In this document: one piece after another, positions 31,320 through 60,648 of the stretch | Position numbering within the stretch: the stretch's first letter is position 1 | Layout: each line of letters begins with the position of its first letter | Origin: a bacterium | Lineage (GTDB): Bacteria; Eisenbacteria; RBG-16-71-46; CAIMUX01 | Direction: 5' to 3' | Length of the DNA: 64,000 bases | Assembly: GCA_030431975.1 (NCBI GenBank) | Contig: JAUIHP010000003.1 | Span: 62,001-126,000, forward strand | Program-made: the position numbers and the translations under genes | The notes under the pieces: generated by a model | What the model was told of the DNA's origin: nothing | Databases searched by the model: none | Seen by the model: the letters and a program-made list of their open reading frames with translations, nothing else

Positions 31320-34271
31320 TCAGGGTAGCGGCGTCACATCCAGAACCACCTCCATCGACCCGCTCGAGGACTCGGTGCCCGAGGTCGTGCATCCCGTACA
31401 GCCGTCGAACCAACGAATCTGGCCCCCGTTGTAGTGGTACAAATCGAAGGTGTGTCGACCCGGCTCCAGCGTCCCGGACTCAGCGATGGAGCCGCAGGGG
31501 TCCTCATCGTTGTCGCACTCAAGGATGTCATCCTCCGGCCCTTCCAGGTCGACCTCGTAACCGGCCGAGCTGGATGAACCGCTCAGGTTGAAGGTCGCCC
31601 CGTCTCCCCACACGATGAATTCCACACCCACATCGACGACAGCCTCGGCCTGAGTCTGATACGAAAGGATGTCAAAGTTGGGATCGCTCAGCGTGATGCT
31701 CCCACTGGAAAGAGAGGACAGACTGAACCGGGTGCGTTGGGTTCCGGCTCCGAGTTCGACCTCCGAGCGAACCTGAGTGTCGGCCGTGCCGGAAACGAGG
31801 ATTCCAACTCGGCTACCACTTCCTACCTTGGACACAGCCGAATCGATGAGTTCGGTCCCTTCGCCCTGAACGAAGGCGTACTCCTGGATGAAGCGATCGC
31901 CCGGAACGCCCTTCTCCCGGTTGTAGGTGGCAAAGACAGAGGCATCGAAGTAGACGGTTCGTTCCACGAGCTCGATCTCATTGCGTCGCCGGGCAACTCG
32001 CTCGGCGTAGGCTTCCCCGTCACCGGACTCCGCCCAGGCCCCGACCACCATGTCGTTCCTGTCATCTCCAAAGGTGATCGTGGTTCGGAAGATGCCCGAA
32101 GCGTCCGTCTTTCCCTCGCGGGGAAACGCTTCGACCCCGTCGTTTTCGAAAGAGATTTCCACCCCCGCCTCATACACGACGTTCCCGCCCGGCTCACGAT
32201 ACCCCGCGGTCACCGTAACCTCGACCTGCTCTCCTGCGGAAACCCGTTGGGGGACGCCGTCGATCTGGATGAAGACTCCACTGGGATCGGCGCAGCCGTT
32301 GAGCAGAATGTCCCGAGCTTCCGAACTTCCGAGATACAGGTCCGAGTACGCGTAGTAGCAAAGGACCTGCAGGTCACTGACCTGCGTTTCGTCGAAGTCC
32401 ATGGACTGCCCATCGATGGTGACGCTGATCTGCTCCCACCGGGGCGGAACGTTGGCATCCAGATCGAAGTGGGACTGGGTATCTCCAACAATGTCGTCTC
32501 CGTTGAGGTCGAAGCGTAGATCGGCCGCGCCGGGAGTCTGTCCGCTAAGCTGTTCGATTCGGCTGACGAAGACACGCAGGTCCTTTTCGTCGAAGATGCC
32601 GTTGGGTTCGTCGATGTTGGGATAGGCGTCCAGATCTCCGGTGACGTCGAGCATCAACTCGCGGACGACGGGATCCACGAGATTGGGATCGAGCGAGAGA
32701 ACGGCTGCATACGCATCGATGGATCCGTAGCTTCGGGCCCTTTCGTAGCCCAACTCGATGGCGCTTCGGATCTCGGCCAGCGTTCGCGTCGGCGCCAGAT
32801 TCCAGAGGTAGGCTGCAAGTCCTCCGACCAAAGCCGAGGCGGGGCCGGTTCCGGTGTAGGCCGCATCGGTCCCGTCACAGAGATCCGGGTTGATACCGGA
32901 GCCCGGGTCGACCAGTTCACAGGGGCCGGCAATCTTCTCTCCCGGAGCCACGACGTGGGGACGAAGGGAACTGGTTGGAAGGTCTCCGCCCTCACCGCTC
33001 GCTCCGACAATGAGAACGTTGCGGAGGGGCCCGGTCTCGAGGTCGAGTCCCAGTCCCAAGGTCTCCTCGAAGAGCAGGAACTCCTCGCGGTCCGCCGGCG
33101 TCGGATTGTGCAGGTCCAGATAGTCGACGAGCTCCGTATAGCTGGCAGCCAGGTTCCATGGCGACGTCGTGGCGCTCGCCTCGTAGCCCGCACGGAGTCC
33201 GGTGTCGCCCGCGGCGGAAACGTGAAAGACGTTGTCCTCGAGCCGTAGACTTCGAATCGTCCACTTCCACTCCACGGCAAGCATGGCGCTGTAGAAGGGA
33301 ATGGGAGATGTCGGGTCGTAGGAGAATCCAACGGGCGTGACCAGGACCTGCTTCCCGCTCTCACGGTAGAGTTGAGTTCCGATCTCCCGGATCGCCTCGC
33401 TCATGTCGAGGTTCCCGATGGCGATCCCGAGAATCTCCGCGTCCGGATAGACACCGACCAGCGGCGAACCTTCCCAGCCGGCACCGATGACGCCCGCATG
33501 GTGGAATCCGCGATTCCCTATGTAGAAGGTGGCATCGGGACTGGTTTCATCGGAGAAACCACTCGCTCCCTCCACGTCCCAATCCAACCCCGGCACATCC
33601 GGGTGGCTGGGAGGATTGCTGAAGAGGTCGGCCAGTACGACGCGAATCTCGTCGCTCAGCATGGGTCGCGTCTTCCAAGTCTGCACCAGGGTCATGAGAT
33701 CCAGATGGGGATAGGGCGTCTCTGCGGTGGGGCTCCAACCGACCGGCACGTTCAGGGACGGATTCCCTCCGATCCCGCCGTCGGGGTCGTGAAGCAGCCC
33801 GGGGACGGCAACTCCGGACTCCGCGCCGAAACGAATCCCGGGGGTGGCGAAGAGAAACGCGTCCGACTGTGCCAACGCCGCCGCCTTGGCCTGCGCATTC
33901 TCCTCCGTGTCCTGGGACGAAACGACAAGGATCACTGTCGGGTTGCCCGCCCCCATGCTCACGATGGCGGCATCTTCCGCTTCGAGAGCGGCGTTCACCT
34001 CAGCCACCGTCGCGTCCGGATGGATGACGGCCCGAATCCGGGTCTTTAGGCGCCCGCCTTCGATATCGGCGGGCGAAACGGGCGTCGCCTGCAGGGAGAC
34101 GACGGCCTCGACGGCGCGGTCTGCCGCCTCGCCTGGAAGAAGCATCCCGTCCGGATCGGGTGGAAGGAACTCGGGAGCGTCGGTTCCGCCCGACGGAGCC
34201 ATGGCGCGCTCTCCGCAACCCAGGCCCGAAGCCAGAAGAGGTAAAAGGACATACAGAAGCAGCCGACGCAT
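31320..34271 (-). CDS. Large exported protein with subtilisin-like (S8) fold, catalytic residues apparently lost
   Basis: 983 residues from the ATG at 34271, nine bases after GGAGG; the frame runs to 34517 but would enter the divergent kinase gene. The N-terminus LLLYVLLPLLASGLGCGERA suggests a lipoprotein. An S8 fold is indicated by IRVVLADLF, NRGFHHAGVIGAG and TGTGPASALVGGLAAYLW, followed by the usual LAEIRSAIELGYE...IDAYAAVLSL. Against the normal H-G-T-H-V-A-G and G-T-S-M-A, the catalytic His is Arg and the Ser is Gly, so proteolysis is doubtful. Dockerin-like calcium loops (DVTGDLDAYP, DLNGDDIVG) and Ig-like domains (VTVTAGYREPGGNVVYEAGV) follow. It sits between an ECF sigma factor and a kinase. 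Confidence 0.78.
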   Translation of the reverse strand: MRRLLLYVLLPLLASGLGCGERAMAPSGGTDAPEFLPPDPDGMLLPGEAADRAVEAVVSLQATPVSPADIEGGRLKTRIRAVIHPDATVAEVNAALEAEDAAIVSMGAGNPTVILVVSSQDTEENAQAKAAALAQSDAFLFATPGIRFGAESGVAVPGLLHDPDGGIGGNPSLNVPVGWSPTAETPYPHLDLMTLVQTWKTRPMLSDEIRVVLADLFSNPPSHPDVPGLDWDVEGASGFSDETSPDATFYIGNRGFHHAGVIGAGWEGSPLVGVYPDAEILGIAIGNLDMSEAIREIGTQLYRESGKQVLVTPVGFSYDPTSPIPFYSAMLAVEWKWTIRSLRLEDNVFHVSAAGDTGLRAGYEASATTSPWNLAASYTELVDYLDLHNPTPADREEFLLFEETLGLGLDLETGPLRNVLIVGASGEGGDLPTSSLRPHVVAPGEKIAGPCELVDPGSGINPDLCDGTDAAYTGTGPASALVGGLAAYLWNLAPTRTLAEIRSAIELGYERARSYGSIDAYAAVLSLDPNLVDPVVRELMLDVTGDLDAYPNIDEPNGIFDEKDLRVFVSRIEQLSGQTPGAADLRFDLNGDDIVGDTQSHFDLDANVPPRWEQISVTIDGQSMDFDETQVSDLQVLCYYAYSDLYLGSSEARDILLNGCADPSGVFIQIDGVPQRVSAGEQVEVTVTAGYREPGGNVVYEAGVEISFENDGVEAFPREGKTDASGIFRTTITFGDDRNDMVVGAWAESGDGEAYAERVARRRNEIELVERTVYFDASVFATYNREKGVPGDRFIQEYAFVQGEGTELIDSAVSKVGSGSRVGILVSGTADTQVRSEVELGAGTQRTRFSLSSLSSGSITLSDPNFDILSYQTQAEAVVDVGVEFIVWGDGATFNLSGSSSSAGYEVDLEGPEDDILECDNDEDPCGSIAESGTLEPGRHTFDLYHYNGGQIRWFDGCTGCTTSGTESSSGSMEVVLDVTPLP

Positions 34272-34358
34272 GGGAGCCATCCTCCAAAAAGGGTTCTTTC
34301 CAAGTACGGCGCAGGACGGAGCCATCGCTCGACAGCTTTTTTTCGGTACTCTCCCCGG

Positions 34359-37091
34359 GTGACCGACGACCGCTTCTATGAATGGTTCGACCGCGCGCTG
34401 GATCTCGATCCCGAGCGGCGCCAGGCATTCCTCGACGAGTCCTGTCCCGACCCGGAGGTTCGGCAGCGGGTCCAGGCCCTCCTTGCGGCGGACGACCAGG
34501 CCGGGGACTTCCTCCATCCCGTCGGCGAGACGCCGTCAACCGATCCAATGGTCGGCGCGAACGTCGGCGCGTACCGGATCGAGCGCCGCATCGGTTCCGG
34601 GGGCATGGCAGATGTCTATCTAGCCCGCCGGGCGGACGGCGCCTTCGACAGGGACGTCGCCCTCAAGCTCGTCCGTTCCGGCCTGGCTACGGAATCGCTG
34701 CTTCGTCGCTTCGAGATCGAACGGAAGATCCTCGCCGGCCTGCAGCACCCCCACATCGCCCAGCTCCTCGACGGAGGAGTCACGACCGAGGGCCGTCCCT
34801 ATCTGGTCATGGAGTACGTCGACGGAGAGCCGATCGATGCCTACTGTGCCCGAGTCGACTTGGAAGTCGACAAACGGCTTCAGTTGTTCCTCGACGTTTG
34901 CGAAGCGGTTCAGTTCGCCCACCGAAACCTGATCGTTCACCGGGACCTGAAGCCGAGCAACATCCTCATCGACGCAGACGGGAACGCCAAGCTGCTCGAC
35001 TTCGGAATCGCCAAGGTGCTGGAGTCCGACGGAAGCAGCGATCTCACCCTGACCCAGGACCGGATGCTCACCCCGCGATACGCCAGCCCGGAGCAGGTTT
35101 CCGGAGAGCCCGTGACCACGGTCAGTGATGTCTACACCCTCGGCGTCGTCCTTTACGAACTACTTACCGGGACGTCTCCCTACCAGCTGACGACGACCAC
35201 GCCTGGTGAAATCGCACGGGCCGTGACAACGGAAGAACCGAAGCGCCCCAGTCGCGCAGTCCAGGAAAGTCCTTCGGCTCCGCATGCGCGTGAACTGGAG
35301 GGGGATCTGGATACGATCGTGCTGAAGGCTCTGCGCAAAGAGCCGGGGCGACGGTACGATTCCGTCGATCGGTTCGCCGAAGACATTCGTCGGTGTCTGG
35401 CCGGCCTCCCGATCTCGGCAAGACCCGACACCCTCCGCTACCGGGCCGGAAAGTTCGTTCGGAGAAACCGACTCCCGGTGGCCTTGGCCGCTTCCCTGGT
35501 CGTGCTCCTCGTGGGTGCAACCGCGATGACGACGTTCCTGTACTTGGAGGCCCGTCGGGCGCAAGACGATGCGGAGGCGGCGCTGGTTGACGCACGCGAG
35601 CAACGGGCCACGGCCGAGGACGTCTCCCAGTTTCTACAGGGAGTTTTCGCATCGATCGATCCGGCCGAACGACAGTCCAAGGACCCCCTGACCGTGGAAG
35701 AGCTGCTCTCTGAAGCTGGAGAGCGCATCCGGAACGAACTCGGCGACCGCCCGCAGGTGGCCTCCGCCCTCTACCGCACCTTGGGTGAATCGCGTCGTCA
35801 ACTGGCCGACTATGAAACGGCCGTGGCTGACCTCGAGCGCGCGCTGGCAATCGCGGAGGAGTCGGGACTCGACGCCGAACGCGTCCGGACCCTGATCGCT
35901 CTGGGCCGTACGCGAGCGTTGCAGGGCGATCTCGAGAGAGCTTCCTCAGACTTGGAACAGGCTGTCGAGGGAGCGGAGCAACTTCATGGAGATGCAGATT
36001 CTCCGGGCATCGACGTCTCGGACTTGCTGCGTCTCCGCGCAGATGCCCACCGTGCACTGGGGAGTTCACTCGCCGAGAGAGGAGAGCATGACGCTGCACT
36101 TCGGCACCTCGAGGAGACGGTGCGACTCCGGAGAACCGACGATTCCATCGACTCTGAAGCCTTGGCTCACGACCTGACCGAACTGGGTCTCCTCCAAATG
36201 CGGCGCGGAAACAACGCGGAGGCGGAACTCTTCCTCGTCGAGTCCCGCGATCTTCTTCTTACGACGTTCGGTGAAGAGCACTCCAAAGTGGGACAGGCTC
36301 GAAACAGCCTCGGCTACCTGCTGATGGATGAGGCGCGGTACGACGAAGCGCGTCCTCAACTGGAGGCCGCCGTCGATGTCCTGAGCCGGGTCTATCCAGA
36401 AGACCATCCAAACCTGCTCGCCGCGCGGAGCAATCTCTCCCGTTGCTACCAGGCGGCCGGCGACCTGGAGAAAGCCGAGGCCATCGCGATCGACATCGCG
36501 GACACATTCCGCCGGACTGCGGGAGACAGCCATCAGAACACCGGACACGCCGTGCACAATCTCGGGTTCATGGTGTTGGAGCGCAAGGACGCAGCCCGCG
36601 CCGCCCGGCTCTTCGCAGAAGCGACGGCGATCTATGAGCGCGCCCTCTCCCCCGAACATCCCTACACGGCGGTGGCCCAGTTCAATCATGCCCGCGCTCT
36701 CCGAGCGGCCGGCGACCTGGAAACGGCAGAGCTGGTTTGTCGGCAGTCTCTCGCAACCCGTCGACGGGTGCTTCGGGAGAATCATCCCGACATCGCGCGG
36801 TCGGCAACGCTCCTCGGAGAGCTACTCCTCGAACGCGGCGACGACGAGGCAGAGTCGGTGTTGCGGGAATCCGTGGACGTGCGGCGCGCTTCGCTGGGAG
36901 AACGTCATCCGGAGACGGCGTGGGCGGAGGTACTGCTGGGCCAGAGTCTTCTTCAGGGAAGCCGACGGGAAGAGGCCGCCCTCATGGTCGAGCGGGCCGT
37001 TGCGGTCCTGGACTCGGTCTACGGATCCGACGCGGGTCGGACAACGCGAGCCGCTGAGATCTTGTCGCAGCTGCGAGCCCAGGCGAGATAG
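34359..37091 (+). CDS. Transmembrane PknB-type Ser/Thr protein kinase with TPR sensor
   Basis: 910 residues from a GTG at 34359 with no clear ribosome binding site. An N-terminal segment (ALDLDPERRQAFLDESCPDPEVRQRVQALL) typical of this family precedes the kinase domain (about 72-345). The latter has GSGGMADVYLA, ATP lysine 103, HRDLKPSN (Asp196), DFG at 214 and YASPEQ, so it is predicted active. A membrane helix lies near 373-396 (LPVALAASLVVLLVGATAMTTFLY). About 500 residues of tetratricopeptide repeats follow (for example HPNLLAARSNLSRCYQAAGDLEKAEAIA). Such kinases usually sit behind a TIGR02999 sigma factor. The nearest on the same strand is at 30734-31297. It is divergent from the S8-like gene across 87 bases. 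Confidence 0.92.
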   Translation: MTDDRFYEWFDRALDLDPERRQAFLDESCPDPEVRQRVQALLAADDQAGDFLHPVGETPSTDPMVGANVGAYRIERRIGSGGMADVYLARRADGAFDRDVALKLVRSGLATESLLRRFEIERKILAGLQHPHIAQLLDGGVTTEGRPYLVMEYVDGEPIDAYCARVDLEVDKRLQLFLDVCEAVQFAHRNLIVHRDLKPSNILIDADGNAKLLDFGIAKVLESDGSSDLTLTQDRMLTPRYASPEQVSGEPVTTVSDVYTLGVVLYELLTGTSPYQLTTTTPGEIARAVTTEEPKRPSRAVQESPSAPHARELEGDLDTIVLKALRKEPGRRYDSVDRFAEDIRRCLAGLPISARPDTLRYRAGKFVRRNRLPVALAASLVVLLVGATAMTTFLYLEARRAQDDAEAALVDAREQRATAEDVSQFLQGVFASIDPAERQSKDPLTVEELLSEAGERIRNELGDRPQVASALYRTLGESRRQLADYETAVADLERALAIAEESGLDAERVRTLIALGRTRALQGDLERASSDLEQAVEGAEQLHGDADSPGIDVSDLLRLRADAHRALGSSLAERGEHDAALRHLEETVRLRRTDDSIDSEALAHDLTELGLLQMRRGNNAEAELFLVESRDLLLTTFGEEHSKVGQARNSLGYLLMDEARYDEARPQLEAAVDVLSRVYPEDHPNLLAARSNLSRCYQAAGDLEKAEAIAIDIADTFRRTAGDSHQNTGHAVHNLGFMVLERKDAARAARLFAEATAIYERALSPEHPYTAVAQFNHARALRAAGDLETAELVCRQSLATRRRVLRENHPDIARSATLLGELLLERGDDEAESVLRESVDVRRASLGERHPETAWAEVLLGQSLLQGSRREEAALMVERAVAVLDSVYGSDAGRTTRAAEILSQLRAQAR

Positions 37092-43703: not shown

Positions 43704-46700
43704 ATGTCCGAATCCCCGCCGCCCACGGATGTCATCTTTCTGCGAGCCCTCGAGCTGGACGGAACGGAACGCGAGCGCTATCTCGACTCCGTCTGCCGGG
43801 ACCCGGCGGTCCGTCGGCGAGTCGAAAAGCTCCTGGAACGGCAGACGGACCAGGCAGACGTTTCGAATCAGGCGGACATCGAAGCCGAGACGGATGACCT
43901 GTATCCATCCATCGGCGACTTCTCCCTTGTCGAAGTGCTGGAGAAGGACCCGCACGGTACTCTGTACCGAGCCAGGGACACCCGGCTGGGCCGCGATGTT
44001 GCTCTCCGAGTTCTGTCACCTGTATCGACTTCGGCAGGCTCCCTACTCGAGGTCGTGCGTCGGCTCGCGTCGATCAAGCATCCCAATGTCGCGGCCATCT
44101 ACACCTTGGAAGATGATCCCGAGAGACCGTACTTCACCATGGAGCTGGTCCGGGGCCATGACCTGACGAAGTCTTTGGGCGGTCGCGCTTCGGACCTGAG
44201 AAGAGGACTTCGACTGGCTCGTCAGATCGCCGCCGCGCTCGAAGTGTCCCACGACGCGGGCGTGCTCCATCTCGGACTTCATCCGGGCTGCATCCAGGTA
44301 GTTCCACCCGATCGGGTCAAGGTTCTGGGATTCGGCGGCGGACGGGGTCGTCCGGGCTATTCCAGTCCTGAGCAGGTGCGCGGCGAACCGGCGGACGAAC
44401 GAAGCGACGTCTGGTCGTTGGGCTGCGTCCTCTTCGAGATCTTTGCCGGGCGTCCGGCCTTCCCGTCAGAAGACGCGGCAGGAACCGCGGCACAGGTTAC
44501 GACGTCGAATGCGACGGATGAACTGTCAGCCGAAACGGTGGACGGAACAGAGGGCGCGGCAGAGTCGATCGAACCCGAGTGGACGCTCCTACCCGAAGAC
44601 CTTCCCGATGCGATTCGCAACCTCCTCACTCGTTGCATGCAGCCGACAGCAGAAGATCGACCCGAGTCGGTGGCCGCCATCCGACAGGCGATCGATGAGC
44701 AGCGAATTGCTGTCGACCGTCCGGTGCCGACACCGCCGCCAAGCTCGAAACGTGATGACACCAGACCGGAACGGATTCACCTGCCTCGTCCACTCACGAC
44801 CTTTGTAGGGCGGGAAACCGAGTTGCAGGAAGTCCGCTCGAGAATCGTGGAGCAGCGGCTGACCTCGATCGTCGGTCCTGGAGGCTCCGGCAAGACACGG
44901 CTTGCCATTCACGCGGCTCGCGAGTCTGCGGCGACCTTTCCGGACGGCGTTTGGTATGTCGAGCTGAGCCCTCTTCGCGAGGGGTCCCAAGTCGACCCTC
45001 ACGTCGCTGCCGCGCTCGAGTTGGGAGACCACCCGAACGGTTCGCCCCGCGACCTGATCAGGGACTACCTCGCCTCTCGTCGCGCCCTCGTCATCCTCGA
45101 CAACTGCGAACACCTTCTCGATGACGTCGCTTCCCTGACCCGCGCCATTCTCGAGTCCGGAACCGAGTGCTCTGTCCTTTTGACCAGCCGTGAAGTTCTT
45201 GGGGTGCAAGGTGAGTCGGCCTATCGCCTTCCCATGCTCAGCGAGGTCGCTTCGCGGGATCTCTTCCGGGAACGCGCTCGCTCGGCGGCGCCCGACTTTC
45301 AGGTGCAGGATTCGGATCTGCAAGTGATCGATGCCATCTGCCGCAAGCTCGACGGAATCCCGTTGGCCGTAGAGCTGGCCGCGAATCGGATCCGCGTCCT
45401 TTCACCCCAACAGATCCTGGAGCGTCTCGAGAACCGCTTTCAGCTGCTGCGAATCGCTCGACCGGCGATGGAACGACACCAAACGCTTCGCGCCGTCCTC
45501 GACTGGAGCTACGAACAACTGGCCGAAGATGAACGTCGCGTCTTTTGCCGCCTCTCCGTATTCTCCGGAAGTTGGAGCCTGGAAGCTGCGGAAGACGTTT
45601 GCGACGGAGACGGTGTCGATGGATGGGATGTGTTCGACATCGTGGGACGTCTCGTCGACAAGTCTCTCGTCGATCTTGTGGTGCTACCCGACGGCGAACG
45701 TGGATCGCGTTTTCGTCTGCTGGAAACCATGCGTGATTACGGATCCGCGCAGCTCGGCGATCCCGACCCCTGGCTACTCCGGCACCTCCATTACTACACG
45801 GACTGGGCGGCCAAAGCGAATCTCGGACTGACCGGAAACGAACAGGCCGAGTGGGTCCAAGAAGTTAAAGTCGAGCACGACAATCTACGACAGGCCTGGA
45901 TCACCGGCGAACGGCTCGAACCGACGACATCCGCGACCATCCGGATGGTCGCCATGATCATCGGCTTCGGAAATCTGACCGGCCGCTGGTCGGAAGTTCG
46001 GACCACGGGCGAGCGATTCCTCGAGGTCGTTCGCTCGAACGAAGACGTCGGCGCCAGAGACTTGGCCGTCCTTCTCAACCGGCTCGGGGTCACCACTCTC
46101 AACCAGTCCGATCTCGATGCATCCGTTCGCTATCACGAGTGGGCCCTCTCTCTTTTCGAATCCATCCCGGGCGAGAACGCGACCGCGGGCATTCTCAACA
46201 ACATGGGGCTGATCGCTATGAGGCGCGGCCGCTACGACGAAGCCCGCGAACTCTTCCTCAAAGCCCGAGAGCAGAACCGCCTGACCGGGAATGCGGCGTG
46301 GGAATCAACGAACCTCAGCAACCTGGGTCTCATCGAGTGGGAGACGAATCACTTCGAAGAGGCGGGACGCTACTTCGAGGGTGCGATCGAGCTCGCGAAG
46401 GATGTCGGGAATCTGAGCTATCAGGCCTCCTTTACGGACAACCTCGCGCTCGTCGCGGCCGACATGGGAGACTTGGACCGTGCCCAGACTCTTCACGAAG
46501 AGAGTCTGGCTTTGTGCCGAAGAATCGAAGATCCGGCCGGGGAATCTGCGTCTCTCCTCAATCTCGGTTCCATCGCCATGGAAAAGGACGGAGATGCGGC
46601 ACGCGCGATGACCCTGGTCATGGAAGCGGTCGAGATCAAAGCCGAACTCGGCGACATCCGAGGCATCATCCTCGCTCTGGAAACGATGACGTGGTTGCAC

Positions 46701-46922
46701 GAATCGACCGCCCCGGAGAAGGCCGCCTACCTGTTGGGCGCCGCCTCAGCCCAAAGAAAGGTGATCGACTTCCCCCTCGCTCCGGCCGACGCCGCGAGAA
46801 TGGAGAAGTCGATCGAACGGACTATCGGCCACATCGGTAAGGAAACGTACGCGGCGAACCGGCAGCGCGGAGAGCGCGCCGAGTTCGCCGACGTTCTCAC
46901 TTTCCTCCGAGGTACTTCCTGA
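43704..46922 (+). CDS. Pseudokinase-STAND ATPase-TPR regulator
   Basis: 1072 residues. An N-terminal PknB-like domain (about 72-345) keeps the fold (YSSPEQVRGEPADERSDVWSLGCVLFEI) but lacks the catalytic set. The glycine loop reads LEKDPHGTLY, the ATP lysine is Arg102 (VALRVL), the catalytic loop is HLGLHPGC (189-196) without Asp, and DFG is GFG (209-211). A STAND/NB-ARC-type ATPase then begins with LTTFVGRETELQEV (~360), Walker A GPGGSGKT (~392-399) and LVILDNCEHL, as in AfsR/COG3903 proteins. The last ~300 residues are TPRs (GILNNMGLIAMRRGRYDEARELF). It is probably a signal-responsive scaffold or regulator, and it is cytoplasmic because no membrane helix is seen. Its 3' end overlaps a convergent peptidase gene. 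Confidence 0.88.
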   Translation: MSESPPPTDVIFLRALELDGTERERYLDSVCRDPAVRRRVEKLLERQTDQADVSNQADIEAETDDLYPSIGDFSLVEVLEKDPHGTLYRARDTRLGRDVALRVLSPVSTSAGSLLEVVRRLASIKHPNVAAIYTLEDDPERPYFTMELVRGHDLTKSLGGRASDLRRGLRLARQIAAALEVSHDAGVLHLGLHPGCIQVVPPDRVKVLGFGGGRGRPGYSSPEQVRGEPADERSDVWSLGCVLFEIFAGRPAFPSEDAAGTAAQVTTSNATDELSAETVDGTEGAAESIEPEWTLLPEDLPDAIRNLLTRCMQPTAEDRPESVAAIRQAIDEQRIAVDRPVPTPPPSSKRDDTRPERIHLPRPLTTFVGRETELQEVRSRIVEQRLTSIVGPGGSGKTRLAIHAARESAATFPDGVWYVELSPLREGSQVDPHVAAALELGDHPNGSPRDLIRDYLASRRALVILDNCEHLLDDVASLTRAILESGTECSVLLTSREVLGVQGESAYRLPMLSEVASRDLFRERARSAAPDFQVQDSDLQVIDAICRKLDGIPLAVELAANRIRVLSPQQILERLENRFQLLRIARPAMERHQTLRAVLDWSYEQLAEDERRVFCRLSVFSGSWSLEAAEDVCDGDGVDGWDVFDIVGRLVDKSLVDLVVLPDGERGSRFRLLETMRDYGSAQLGDPDPWLLRHLHYYTDWAAKANLGLTGNEQAEWVQEVKVEHDNLRQAWITGERLEPTTSATIRMVAMIIGFGNLTGRWSEVRTTGERFLEVVRSNEDVGARDLAVLLNRLGVTTLNQSDLDASVRYHEWALSLFESIPGENATAGILNNMGLIAMRRGRYDEARELFLKAREQNRLTGNAAWESTNLSNLGLIEWETNHFEEAGRYFEGAIELAKDVGNLSYQASFTDNLALVAADMGDLDRAQTLHEESLALCRRIEDPAGESASLLNLGSIAMEKDGDAARAMTLVMEAVEIKAELGDIRGIILALETMTWLHESTAPEKAAYLLGAASAQRKVIDFPLAPADAARMEKSIERTIGHIGKETYAANRQRGERAEFADVLTFLRGTS

Positions 46923-58143: not shown

Positions 58144-60648
58144 ATGCGCGTCGACCATAAAACCATCGCTGTCTATGAGCGTGAGATCCTGGCCCCTGCT
58201 TTGGGTTGGTCCAAGGAGTCCCTCGTTCGGCCGCCTCGTGCGCATGAGACTCGACTCGACCAGCAGGTCCGGGACACGCAGTCGCGTATTGCCGCAACGA
58301 AGCTGTCCCGGATCGACTTATTGGGTCGCATCCGGCGGGAGGTCGACCCATTGGATCTCGGGTACTCACGGACTTCCGTCTTCGCAAACGAAGAGCTGGG
58401 AATCAGTCACCGATCCTTCCAGGACGCTGCGCGCATTTCACGTGAGACTGAAACGCGACCACTACTTCGTCGTGCGATGGCGGAAGGGATCATTTGTGAG
58501 TCCAAAGTCCTGACGATCCTTCCTGTCCTGGATGCTGACAATGAAGTCGAGTGGTTGCGAACCGCCTGCTCGCTCACGAACAAGGCCCTCAAAGAGCGCG
58601 TGCAACGGGAGAAGGAAGAAGAGAAAGAGAAAGAGAAAGAGAAGGAGAAGGAGAAGGAAGAGGGGAAGGGGAACGACAAGGAGCGCGCGAAAGGGCGACG
58701 GGAAAGCACCGATGCGCGCGACTTCGGCCTACGGAGTTTGAACGACCTCAATGGGTTCGGTAATCACGGTGCAAACCACCGCTATCACCGCGGGATGTGG
58801 CTCCTGGTCGACGTCGAATGCCCGACCCAGTTTCGTTGGATCTTCGAGGCCTTCTGCGAAGACGTCGCACGTCGGACCGGCGGTCCGGCGAATAGCAGCC
58901 AGGCGCTCGAGGTCCTGTTGGCCGAGTTCGAGGCTTCGAACTTCGTCGATCTGTATGAGCCTCCCGACGAACCTCCGGAGTTCTTCGAGAACGAAACCGA
59001 CGGTGGAATCAGGGAGATCCCGCAAACTGGCGGCAAGGGGATGTCCGTGATTCGCGTTTCCAATCACGATGACTTCGTCCTGAGCAAGACACGACTGGCC
59101 GAACTGGATGCCGTGCTTGCATCGGAGTTCGGGAGCAGCGGGGGAGCCGCGGTCGAGGACCTCGTAGGTGCGACCTCTACAGGAGCGAGCCGAACGGGCG
59201 CGGGTCTGTCGAATGCGAATCCAACGGGAACGAGTGCAACGAGCGTGAACCCCGAGGGGGCGAACTCTACGGTTACGGACGCGGCCGGTATCAACCCGAC
59301 GGGCGGGATTCCGGCGGATTCGAGCGCTGCAGACTTGATCCGTGAGTTCCGTTCGTTCGAAGCGAAGCTTCGGTCTCTTCGCAATCATCTGGCTTGTCTG
59401 CTCTATGACATTCGAAGCACGCACGCTTGGCGACCGCTCGGTTTCGACTGCTTCCGTGAGTATGTCGAAGATCGCTTGGACGTTTCCGTTCGGACCGCCA
59501 ACCAGTGGATCCGGGCGTGGCAGACTCGCTCCCGCACATTGCATGAAGCTCAGTCCGCCGAGGAGCTTCGCACGACATCACTCCTTGCACTCAGCCGAAT
59601 CGAACGCGCCGGAGCGGGCGGAGAGAGCATGCGTCTGTGGCGTCAGCGCGCAACGGAAGTAACCGCCGCGGTTCTTGAACAGCAGGTCCGCTGGGCCATG
59701 GCGCACGAGGATCTATTGCCGACCAGTACCGGTGACGATCTCGGCGACACCGATTCTGGTGACACCAATCCTGGCGATACCGTTTCTCGGCCTCCGCGGC
59801 TTCGCATGGCTCCACCGTCTGAAGCGACGTGGCCTGCGATCGCGGATCGGCTTCGTCGGACTCCGGAACTGATTTCTCTGCCTGCGTTCCACGAGGCCGC
59901 TTTCGAACACGACGCAAAGATTCAGCGTGCCGCTCTGTCGGCTTGCTGCGCCGACGGGGGCGACACGGAAGACACGGATGACACGGACGACACGGACGAC
60001 ACGGACGACCCGGGCTGTGATCCTGCAGGCGAGTCGGTCGGAGTTGACGCCGCCGGGTTCGACACTCCGCCGGATCCAACTGAGATGTCCGAAGCCGTCA
60101 CCGATGTCCCGCCGGACCCGACGGCGATGTCCAAAGCGGCCGCCGACTTCTTCGGGAAGATTTCTGCGTGCTACTGGGAAGAGATGCTTCGAGTGCCGGA
60201 TCCGACCGAGAAATGCACGTCCGTCGTGCGTCTTCGCACCGACATAGACCTGCTGGATGCTCTCGATCGCACCATTTGCCGAGTCCGCGCTGCGCACGGA
60301 GAGGACAAACCGGAGTGGTGGTGCCTGGAGCTCATGATTCTGTACGTCCGCAATGGATGGGTCCTGGGCGACCGCGACTTTCGCCGCCGAACGGCTGAGT
60401 TCAACATCCTGGCTCGCGACGGATTCCAGTGTACGTCTCCGCGGTGCAACGCGCGCACCAACCTAAACGTTCATCACATCGTTTTTCGGTCCCAGGGTGG
60501 CAGCGACGATCCGTCGAACCTGACGACACTCTGCGCCGCGTGTCATCTGCAGGGGGTCCACACTCGGGCAACGATCGCGGTGGGTGGGTTGGCTCCGCAT
60601 GACCTGAGGTGGAGCTACGGTGCCGATGCCAAGCTCGGCTTTGTCTAA
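58144..60648 (+). CDS. HNH endonuclease-domain protein with low-complexity inserts
   Basis: 834 residues. The C-terminal ~60 residues hold an HNH nuclease with zinc cysteines (FQCTSPRCNARTNLNVHHIVFR, then DDPSNLTTLCAACH). It resembles DUF222-type HNH proteins in architecture, with a helical N-terminal part (LSRIDLLGRIRREVDPLDLGYSRTSVF) and a second related helical block near 395-530 (LACLLYDIRSTHAWRPLGFDCFREYVE). Between them are inserts unlike a normal enzyme: a Glu-Lys run (~157-180), a Thr/Ser/Gly/Asn-rich segment (~345-390), and Asp-Thr runs near 540 and 610 (EDTDDTDDTDDTDD). The ATG has no good ribosome binding site. A promoter and G-rich array precede it. Possible roles are mobile DNA or defence; none is shown. 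Confidence 0.8.
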   Translation: MRVDHKTIAVYEREILAPALGWSKESLVRPPRAHETRLDQQVRDTQSRIAATKLSRIDLLGRIRREVDPLDLGYSRTSVFANEELGISHRSFQDAARISRETETRPLLRRAMAEGIICESKVLTILPVLDADNEVEWLRTACSLTNKALKERVQREKEEEKEKEKEKEKEKEEGKGNDKERAKGRRESTDARDFGLRSLNDLNGFGNHGANHRYHRGMWLLVDVECPTQFRWIFEAFCEDVARRTGGPANSSQALEVLLAEFEASNFVDLYEPPDEPPEFFENETDGGIREIPQTGGKGMSVIRVSNHDDFVLSKTRLAELDAVLASEFGSSGGAAVEDLVGATSTGASRTGAGLSNANPTGTSATSVNPEGANSTVTDAAGINPTGGIPADSSAADLIREFRSFEAKLRSLRNHLACLLYDIRSTHAWRPLGFDCFREYVEDRLDVSVRTANQWIRAWQTRSRTLHEAQSAEELRTTSLLALSRIERAGAGGESMRLWRQRATEVTAAVLEQQVRWAMAHEDLLPTSTGDDLGDTDSGDTNPGDTVSRPPRLRMAPPSEATWPAIADRLRRTPELISLPAFHEAAFEHDAKIQRAALSACCADGGDTEDTDDTDDTDDTDDPGCDPAGESVGVDAAGFDTPPDPTEMSEAVTDVPPDPTAMSKAAADFFGKISACYWEEMLRVPDPTEKCTSVVRLRTDIDLLDALDRTICRVRAAHGEDKPEWWCLELMILYVRNGWVLGDRDFRRRTAEFNILARDGFQCTSPRCNARTNLNVHHIVFRSQGGSDDPSNLTTLCAACHLQGVHTRATIAVGGLAPHDLRWSYGADAKLGFV

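Follow-up and report, generated by a model that had tools for sequence, protein, structure and literature searches.

A PknB-like pseudokinase fused to a STAND ATPase and TPR array: a candidate switch with non-catalytic output

In the window, a 64,000-nucleotide stretch of contig JAUIHP010000003.1, the gene at 43704..46922 (+) encodes a protein (hereafter the query) in which a kinase domain that has lost its catalytic residues precedes the nucleotide-binding core of a STAND ATPase and a TPR array. Alignment with 46 relatives showed that the β3 Lys, the αC Glu, the catalytic Asp, the Mg-binding Asn and the DFG Asp are all replaced, thereby bearing out an earlier reading of this domain as a pseudokinase. 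Since the shape of the kinase is kept and the key catalytic residues are lost, the query probably signals through partner binding and not through phosphorylation. With a probability of roughly 0.5, we postulate that it is a STAND switch of the PknK/MalT type, carrying an N-terminal pseudokinase effector that acts by binding a partner.

Gene layout and catalytic losses

The gene is a single uninterrupted open reading frame of 1072 aa, from ATG to stop, with no internal stop codon. The order of its Pfam matches is Pkinase (residues 85-324, 74.7 bits), NB-ARC (372-605) and TPR_12/TPR_10/TPR_MalT (760-980); AAA_22 is also matched beside NB-ARC, and AAA_16 was not matched at E 0.001 among the Pfam profiles, the only ones used for this comparison. 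The kinase domain matches Mycobacterium tuberculosis PknB with a phmmer E value of 5e-20, and in NCBIfam the similarities of the query to PknB-type kinases, AfsR and related STAND-TPR proteins are all sub-threshold. The features are as follows.

43704..43898 (+): N-terminal leader, residues 1-65; three predicted helices and a disordered linker
43899..44717 (+): pseudokinase domain of PknB-like fold, residues 66-338; Pfam PF00069 (74.7 bits), AlphaFold2 (AF2) model and structure match
43941..43958 (+): degenerate glycine loop EKDPHG, residues 80-85; E and D where relatives have G
44007..44009 (+): R102 at the β3 Lys position; K in 44/46 relatives
44052..44054 (+): V117 at the αC Glu position; E in 45/46 relatives
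44268..44291 (+): catalytic loop HLGLHPGC, residues 189-196; Asp replaced by Gly191, Asn by Cys196
44328..44372 (+): GFG...SPE, residues 209-223; DFG Asp lost, activation segment of 15 aa
44772..45518 (+): NB-ARC nucleotide-binding and helical domains of the STAND NOD, residues 357-605; Pfam PF00931 (44 bits), Foldseek match 6mfv
44874..44897 (+): Walker A GPGGSGKT, residues 391-398; invariant residues in the alignment
45090..45104 (+): Walker B VILDN, residues 463-467; D466 invariant, N467 in 45/46 relatives
45519..45719 (+): winged-helix domain of the STAND NOD, residues 606-672; AF2 secondary structure and analogy with the NOD layout (PMC6468293), boundary approximate
45723..46919 (+): arm and TPR/helical-repeat array, residues 674-1072, the presumed sensor; Pfam TPR matches and AF2

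In the AF2 model, the leader forms helices at residues 8-16, 20-30 and 34-51, with pLDDT below 50 at residues 50-65, and it can be aligned with the leaders of paralogues. Residues 674-1071 are all-helical.

The catalytic positions were compared in an alignment of the query and 46 kinase-STAND relatives (47 rows). In the glycine loop, E80 and D82 stand where G is found in 42/46 and 45/46 relatives, respectively. The catalytic loop has G191 in place of the catalytic D (45/46), H193 in place of K (39/46) and C196 in place of the Mg-binding N, which is present in all 46 relatives; L190 is also listed among the replaced positions. G209 replaces the D of DFG (45/46), R216 replaces T (43/46), and the segment from DFG to APE is 15 aa long, compared with 24-107 aa in relatives with an intact motif. 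Overall, 8 of 12 catalytic or nucleotide-binding positions are lost in the query and 9 in one paralogue, L034, whereas the remaining 45 proteins have lost 0-2, a comparison suggesting that the losses in the query are more than chance would give. Sequencing error was ruled out as their source, because they fall in many separate codons within an open frame.

The first-pass annotation had described all hallmark kinase positions as changed. This holds for the Lys, the catalytic Asp, the DFG Asp and the two diagnostic loop glycines, but six motif residues are retained (G85, A100, H189, P194, F210 and G211), so that the glycine loop still has one Gly. Conversely, the αC Glu, the Mg-binding Asn and the shortened activation segment are losses beyond those it had listed.

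Kinase-fold pseudoenzymes can have unusual chemistries. SidJ and SelO are named in a review of the field (PMC12599244), and R102 is still positively charged, so residual or altered catalysis in a remodelled pocket, by metal-independent nucleotide binding or another transfer chemistry, might be considered. We regard it as very improbable, given that both Mg ligands, the αC Glu, the catalytic Asp and two loop glycines are lost together.

The kinase fold and the STAND core

Outside the catalytic positions, the kinase domain retains much of what its family conserves. The query keeps 34 of the 52 kinase columns that are conserved at 80% or more, including the structural residues H126-P127, G151, H183, P222-E223, D235, G240 and R319. 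When the catalytic and activation-loop columns were omitted, identity to the family in the kinase domain, divided by that in the NB-ARC, was 0.773 for the query, the 8th lowest of 47 (mean 0.837, sd 0.079); this is less than one standard deviation from the mean, indicating that divergence of the rest of the domain is ordinary. The retained structural residues and this ordinary ratio make the fold look constrained at the sequence level. AF2 modelled the whole protein with a mean pLDDT of 89.2, mostly above 80 in the pseudokinase domain, and the modelled kinase part matches M. tuberculosis PknA and PknB with Z of about 29-30 and rmsd of 2.2-2.9 over about 250 residues, although the input alignment consisted mostly of active kinases and biases the model toward a kinase fold. 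The earlier claim that the overall fold and the structural blocks remain is therefore upheld. Taken together, the structural residues, the ordinary divergence and the fold matching PknA/PknB indicate that the domain is a selectively disarmed pseudokinase and not a generally decayed one. Recent decay was rejected as the main account, because constraint beyond the catalytic positions is ordinary.

The ATPase that follows had been described as having intact Walker motifs, and the alignment agrees: G393, G394, G396 and K397 of Walker A and D466 of Walker B are invariant across the 47 rows. TSR (494-496) and, in the HD, G-I-P (551-553) are also intact, and most NOD motif positions are invariant in the family. 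The second-best Foldseek match of the query model was 6mfv, a STAND with a TPR sensor. The query thus has the P-loop NOD of such proteins, as judged from the conserved motifs and the NB-ARC match, followed by a winged helix, an arm and a C-terminal TPR array (TPR matches, AF2 and 6mfv), the limits of winged helix and arm being inferred.

In STAND proteins the arm and repeat sensor keep the NOD closed on ADP until an inducer binds; the NOD then opens, and ATP-bound multimers form in which the terminal effector is presented (PMC4381067, PMC6468293). Sensing is usually the task of the repeat array, with a terminal domain as the effector (PMC6468293). By analogy with this family, we infer inducer-driven ADP/ATP exchange and multimerisation for the query NOD: at rest it would be closed on ADP and held through contacts with the arm and TPRs, and an inducer on the TPR/arm region would open it, admit ATP and cause the protein to multimerise.

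Paralogues and the proposed binding output

In the source genome (6.19 Mb, 59 contigs), Pfam gives 66 kinase matches, which amount to about 62 genes because four are counted twice; 21 of its proteins, including the query, have a kinase before the same NB-ARC and TPR region. Similar kinase-STAND-TPR fusions were found in many of the 47 genomes of the class examined, and also in the phylum of a Gemmatimonadaceae MAG (locus L088; 395 genomes searched), where the readable kinase motifs are intact. From the number in the source genome and the fusions in many others, the architecture is both abundant and lineage-expanded.

The catalytic Asp, the Mg-binding Asn and the DFG Asp are kept in all but 2 of 56 readable class members, and both exceptions, the query and L034, belong to the source genome. 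L034:2100-5369 (+), equivalent to G000:C15:89599-92868, encodes a second, more degraded pseudokinase-NB-ARC-TPR protein, with R at the Lys position, R at the αC Glu position, HGAV in the catalytic loop, no DFG and no APE. Its kinase scores below the Pfam cut-off. Modelling of its N-terminal part still gave part of a kinase fold, with a mean pLDDT of 77 and values of about 90 or more across residues 11-150; this model matches PknA and the kinase-homology domain of Rv3910. A sister grouping of the query and L034 was weak in the first of two NB-ARC trees (93/59) and was not resolved in the second; an AU test of this clade (p 0.43) neither supported nor rejected it. The trees put the query with proteins from its own family-level lineage, with no sister resolved.

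As a separate observation, L122:405-3728 (-), L123:2503-5745 (+) and L124:1-2917 (-), at G000 C27, C17:243 kb and C22:43 kb, encode proteins of ~1000-1100 aa whose kinases keep HxDxxPxN and DFG and have no glycine loop. In L122 and L123 the kinase is followed by an AAA-like stretch in which the P-loop Lys is seemingly lost (RRGAGLSRF, ARPGTGLTRF), a pattern that is the mirror image of the query.

Two paralogues, L041:2588-6124 (+) and L042:3224-6829 (-), have a Trans_reg_C plus BTAD (SARP) module before the same NB-ARC/TPR region. Because this module takes the kinase's place, the arrangement supports the pseudokinase as occupant of the effector slot of the STAND switch, and the N-terminal domain as its putative output. 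An earlier suggestion of phospho-independent sensing therefore survives in part: the loss of catalytic residues fits a phospho-independent output, but sensing by the kinase domain itself is less likely, since the repeat array is the usual sensor and a SARP module occupies the same slot in two paralogues.

Pseudokinases serve as allosteric activators, competitors, scaffolds and switches (PMC8141879). In the query, multimerisation would cluster the pseudokinase domains, which may then act by binding, through docking on or allosteric tuning of active kinases or through competition for substrates; the most plausible partners would be found among the cell's own PknB-type kinases, of which there are roughly 60. 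A TPR-STAND with a pseudokinase as its effector would demonstrate that STAND switching can operate via a kinase fold without phosphorylation. More speculatively, and in our estimate rather improbably, the two dead members among the 21 kinase-STAND-TPR switches are shared regulators or decoys of the active ones. If true, such an arrangement would parallel, in a bacterium, the NLR networks that have integrated pseudokinases: clustering by a STAND would let pseudokinases control other kinases.

The DNA-binding module of the two paralogues also bears on another proposal, that the query is a transcription switch without a DNA-binding domain of its own, its pseudokinase recruiting a regulator or sigma factor upon STAND oligomerisation. 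As had been noted before, neither the Pfam search nor the AF2 model revealed a DNA-binding domain in the query, and Trans_reg_C and BTAD were absent by Pfam. Its architecture is close to that of AfsR-type proteins, and PknK has been grouped with MalT-like STANDs (PMC4381067), but the neighbourhood gives no pointer to a regulon, and we consider this proposal distinctly unlikely.

The domain order of PknK is kinase-NOD-TPR. This M. tuberculosis protein, named as a STAND kinase (PMC4381067), resembles the query, in a comparison by description and not by sequence, in combining a PknB-like kinase and a STAND core; however, PknK is an active kinase, whereas the query, judged from its residues, has the N-terminal PknB-like domain before the NOD but appears to lack catalytic competence. 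MalT and PH0952 share the NOD, arm and TPR sensor with the query but carry a DNA-binding effector domain. The NB-ARC region of the query aligns with Streptomyces AfsR, 8k60, 8jke and NF053617, but AfsR has a SARP DNA-binding domain where the query has the pseudokinase, and the query scores far below the AfsR cut-off.

Joining a broken kinase to an NTPase is not new, given the precedents of the CP1 and MoxR-vWA systems. In CP1, about 40% of whose kinases have broken motifs, a soluble kinase-fold domain is fused to a predicted ATPase (PMC12599244); that ATPase is COG3899, often with FhlA/GAF or PAS domains and mainly in cyanobacteria and proteobacteria, whereas the ATPase of the query, on its Pfam matches, would rather be of the NB-ARC/AfsR type. 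In the MoxR-vWA conflict systems, broken kinase domains are non-enzymatic modules of NTPase-driven systems (PMC7159879), but these kinases are tied to vWA/MoxR proteins, mainly in actinobacteria, and not to a STAND-TPR protein. Among the pseudokinase families reviewed in PMC12599244, none is described with an NB-ARC or TPR partner, words that are absent from its main text. Both STAND kinases and bacterial pseudokinases are known, but neither group has been studied much. A natural comparison between live and dead forms of a single architecture is at hand in this cell, where catalytic motifs are intact in nearly all of the 20 paralogues.

The locus and its neighbours

A search of public genomes for orthologues returned two distant matches and no close orthologue. 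Among the 47 class genomes and the 395 genomes of the Gemmatimonadaceae MAG phylum, nothing was closer than about 37-39% over long matches, and no homologue in the collections searched exceeded about 47% NB-ARC identity. The distant homologues have active-type kinase motifs. In G002, a genome from the same family, a single contig carries the conserved flanking genes of the query, metH-hydrolase and S9-Fer4, and its S9 gene points the opposite way; no kinase gene or relic was found there between the S9 and Fer4 genes, nor upstream of S9. Since G002 keeps the flanking genes without the kinase gene, the latter is, on synteny, accessory at this locus, either gained in the source genome or lost in G002.

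Its absence from G002 is also what would be expected of a drifting paralogue of a large expansion, one that has lost its kinase output and is on its way out, with an N-terminal domain that is now functionless. The two dead members among 56, found in one genome and not clearly grouping, point the same way, and their occurrence in one genome could mean an early stage of domain loss. This restriction to one genome is the chief weakness of the case for the query. We nevertheless consider drift unlikely, because at least eight catalytic positions have been replaced without a stop, a frameshift or general erosion of the domain, and the structural and NOD residues are retained.

The accessory state of the gene would also suit an integrated decoy or immune-type sensor, in which the dead kinase would imitate the cell's own kinases and so be bait for a phage or competitor factor directed at them, whose binding opens the STAND and triggers defence. 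Precedents are plant NLRs, into which kinase and pseudokinase domains can be integrated (PMC9528084), and the MoxR-vWA conflict systems, in which most kinase domains are inactive and inactive enzyme copies have been read as possible decoys (PMC7159879). However, the query has no toxic effector domain, and the adjacent genes include no defence genes: they are housekeeping-like (metH, a hydrolase, an S9 peptidase and a ferredoxin-type protein). PADLOC gave no match to the metH, hydrolase, S9, Fer4 and Hsp33-like neighbours and no known anti-phage system set at the locus; its matches on the query were almost all generic kinase-domain models, plus one TPR model. The immune-type receptor proposed by the first-pass annotation thus finds no support in its context, and we consider a decoy quite unlikely.

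Three minor observations concern other genes of the window. A weak match to the DpdF defence model at 58144-60648 is limited to the C-terminal HNH domain of an 834-aa protein. The S9 peptidase gene (-) overlaps the 3' end of the query gene tail to tail by 26 bases (46897-46922). An S8-peptidase open reading frame at 31320-34517 (-) and a kinase-TPR open reading frame at 34359-37091 (+) overlap head to head at 34359-34517, and one of the two listed starts is therefore probably too far upstream.
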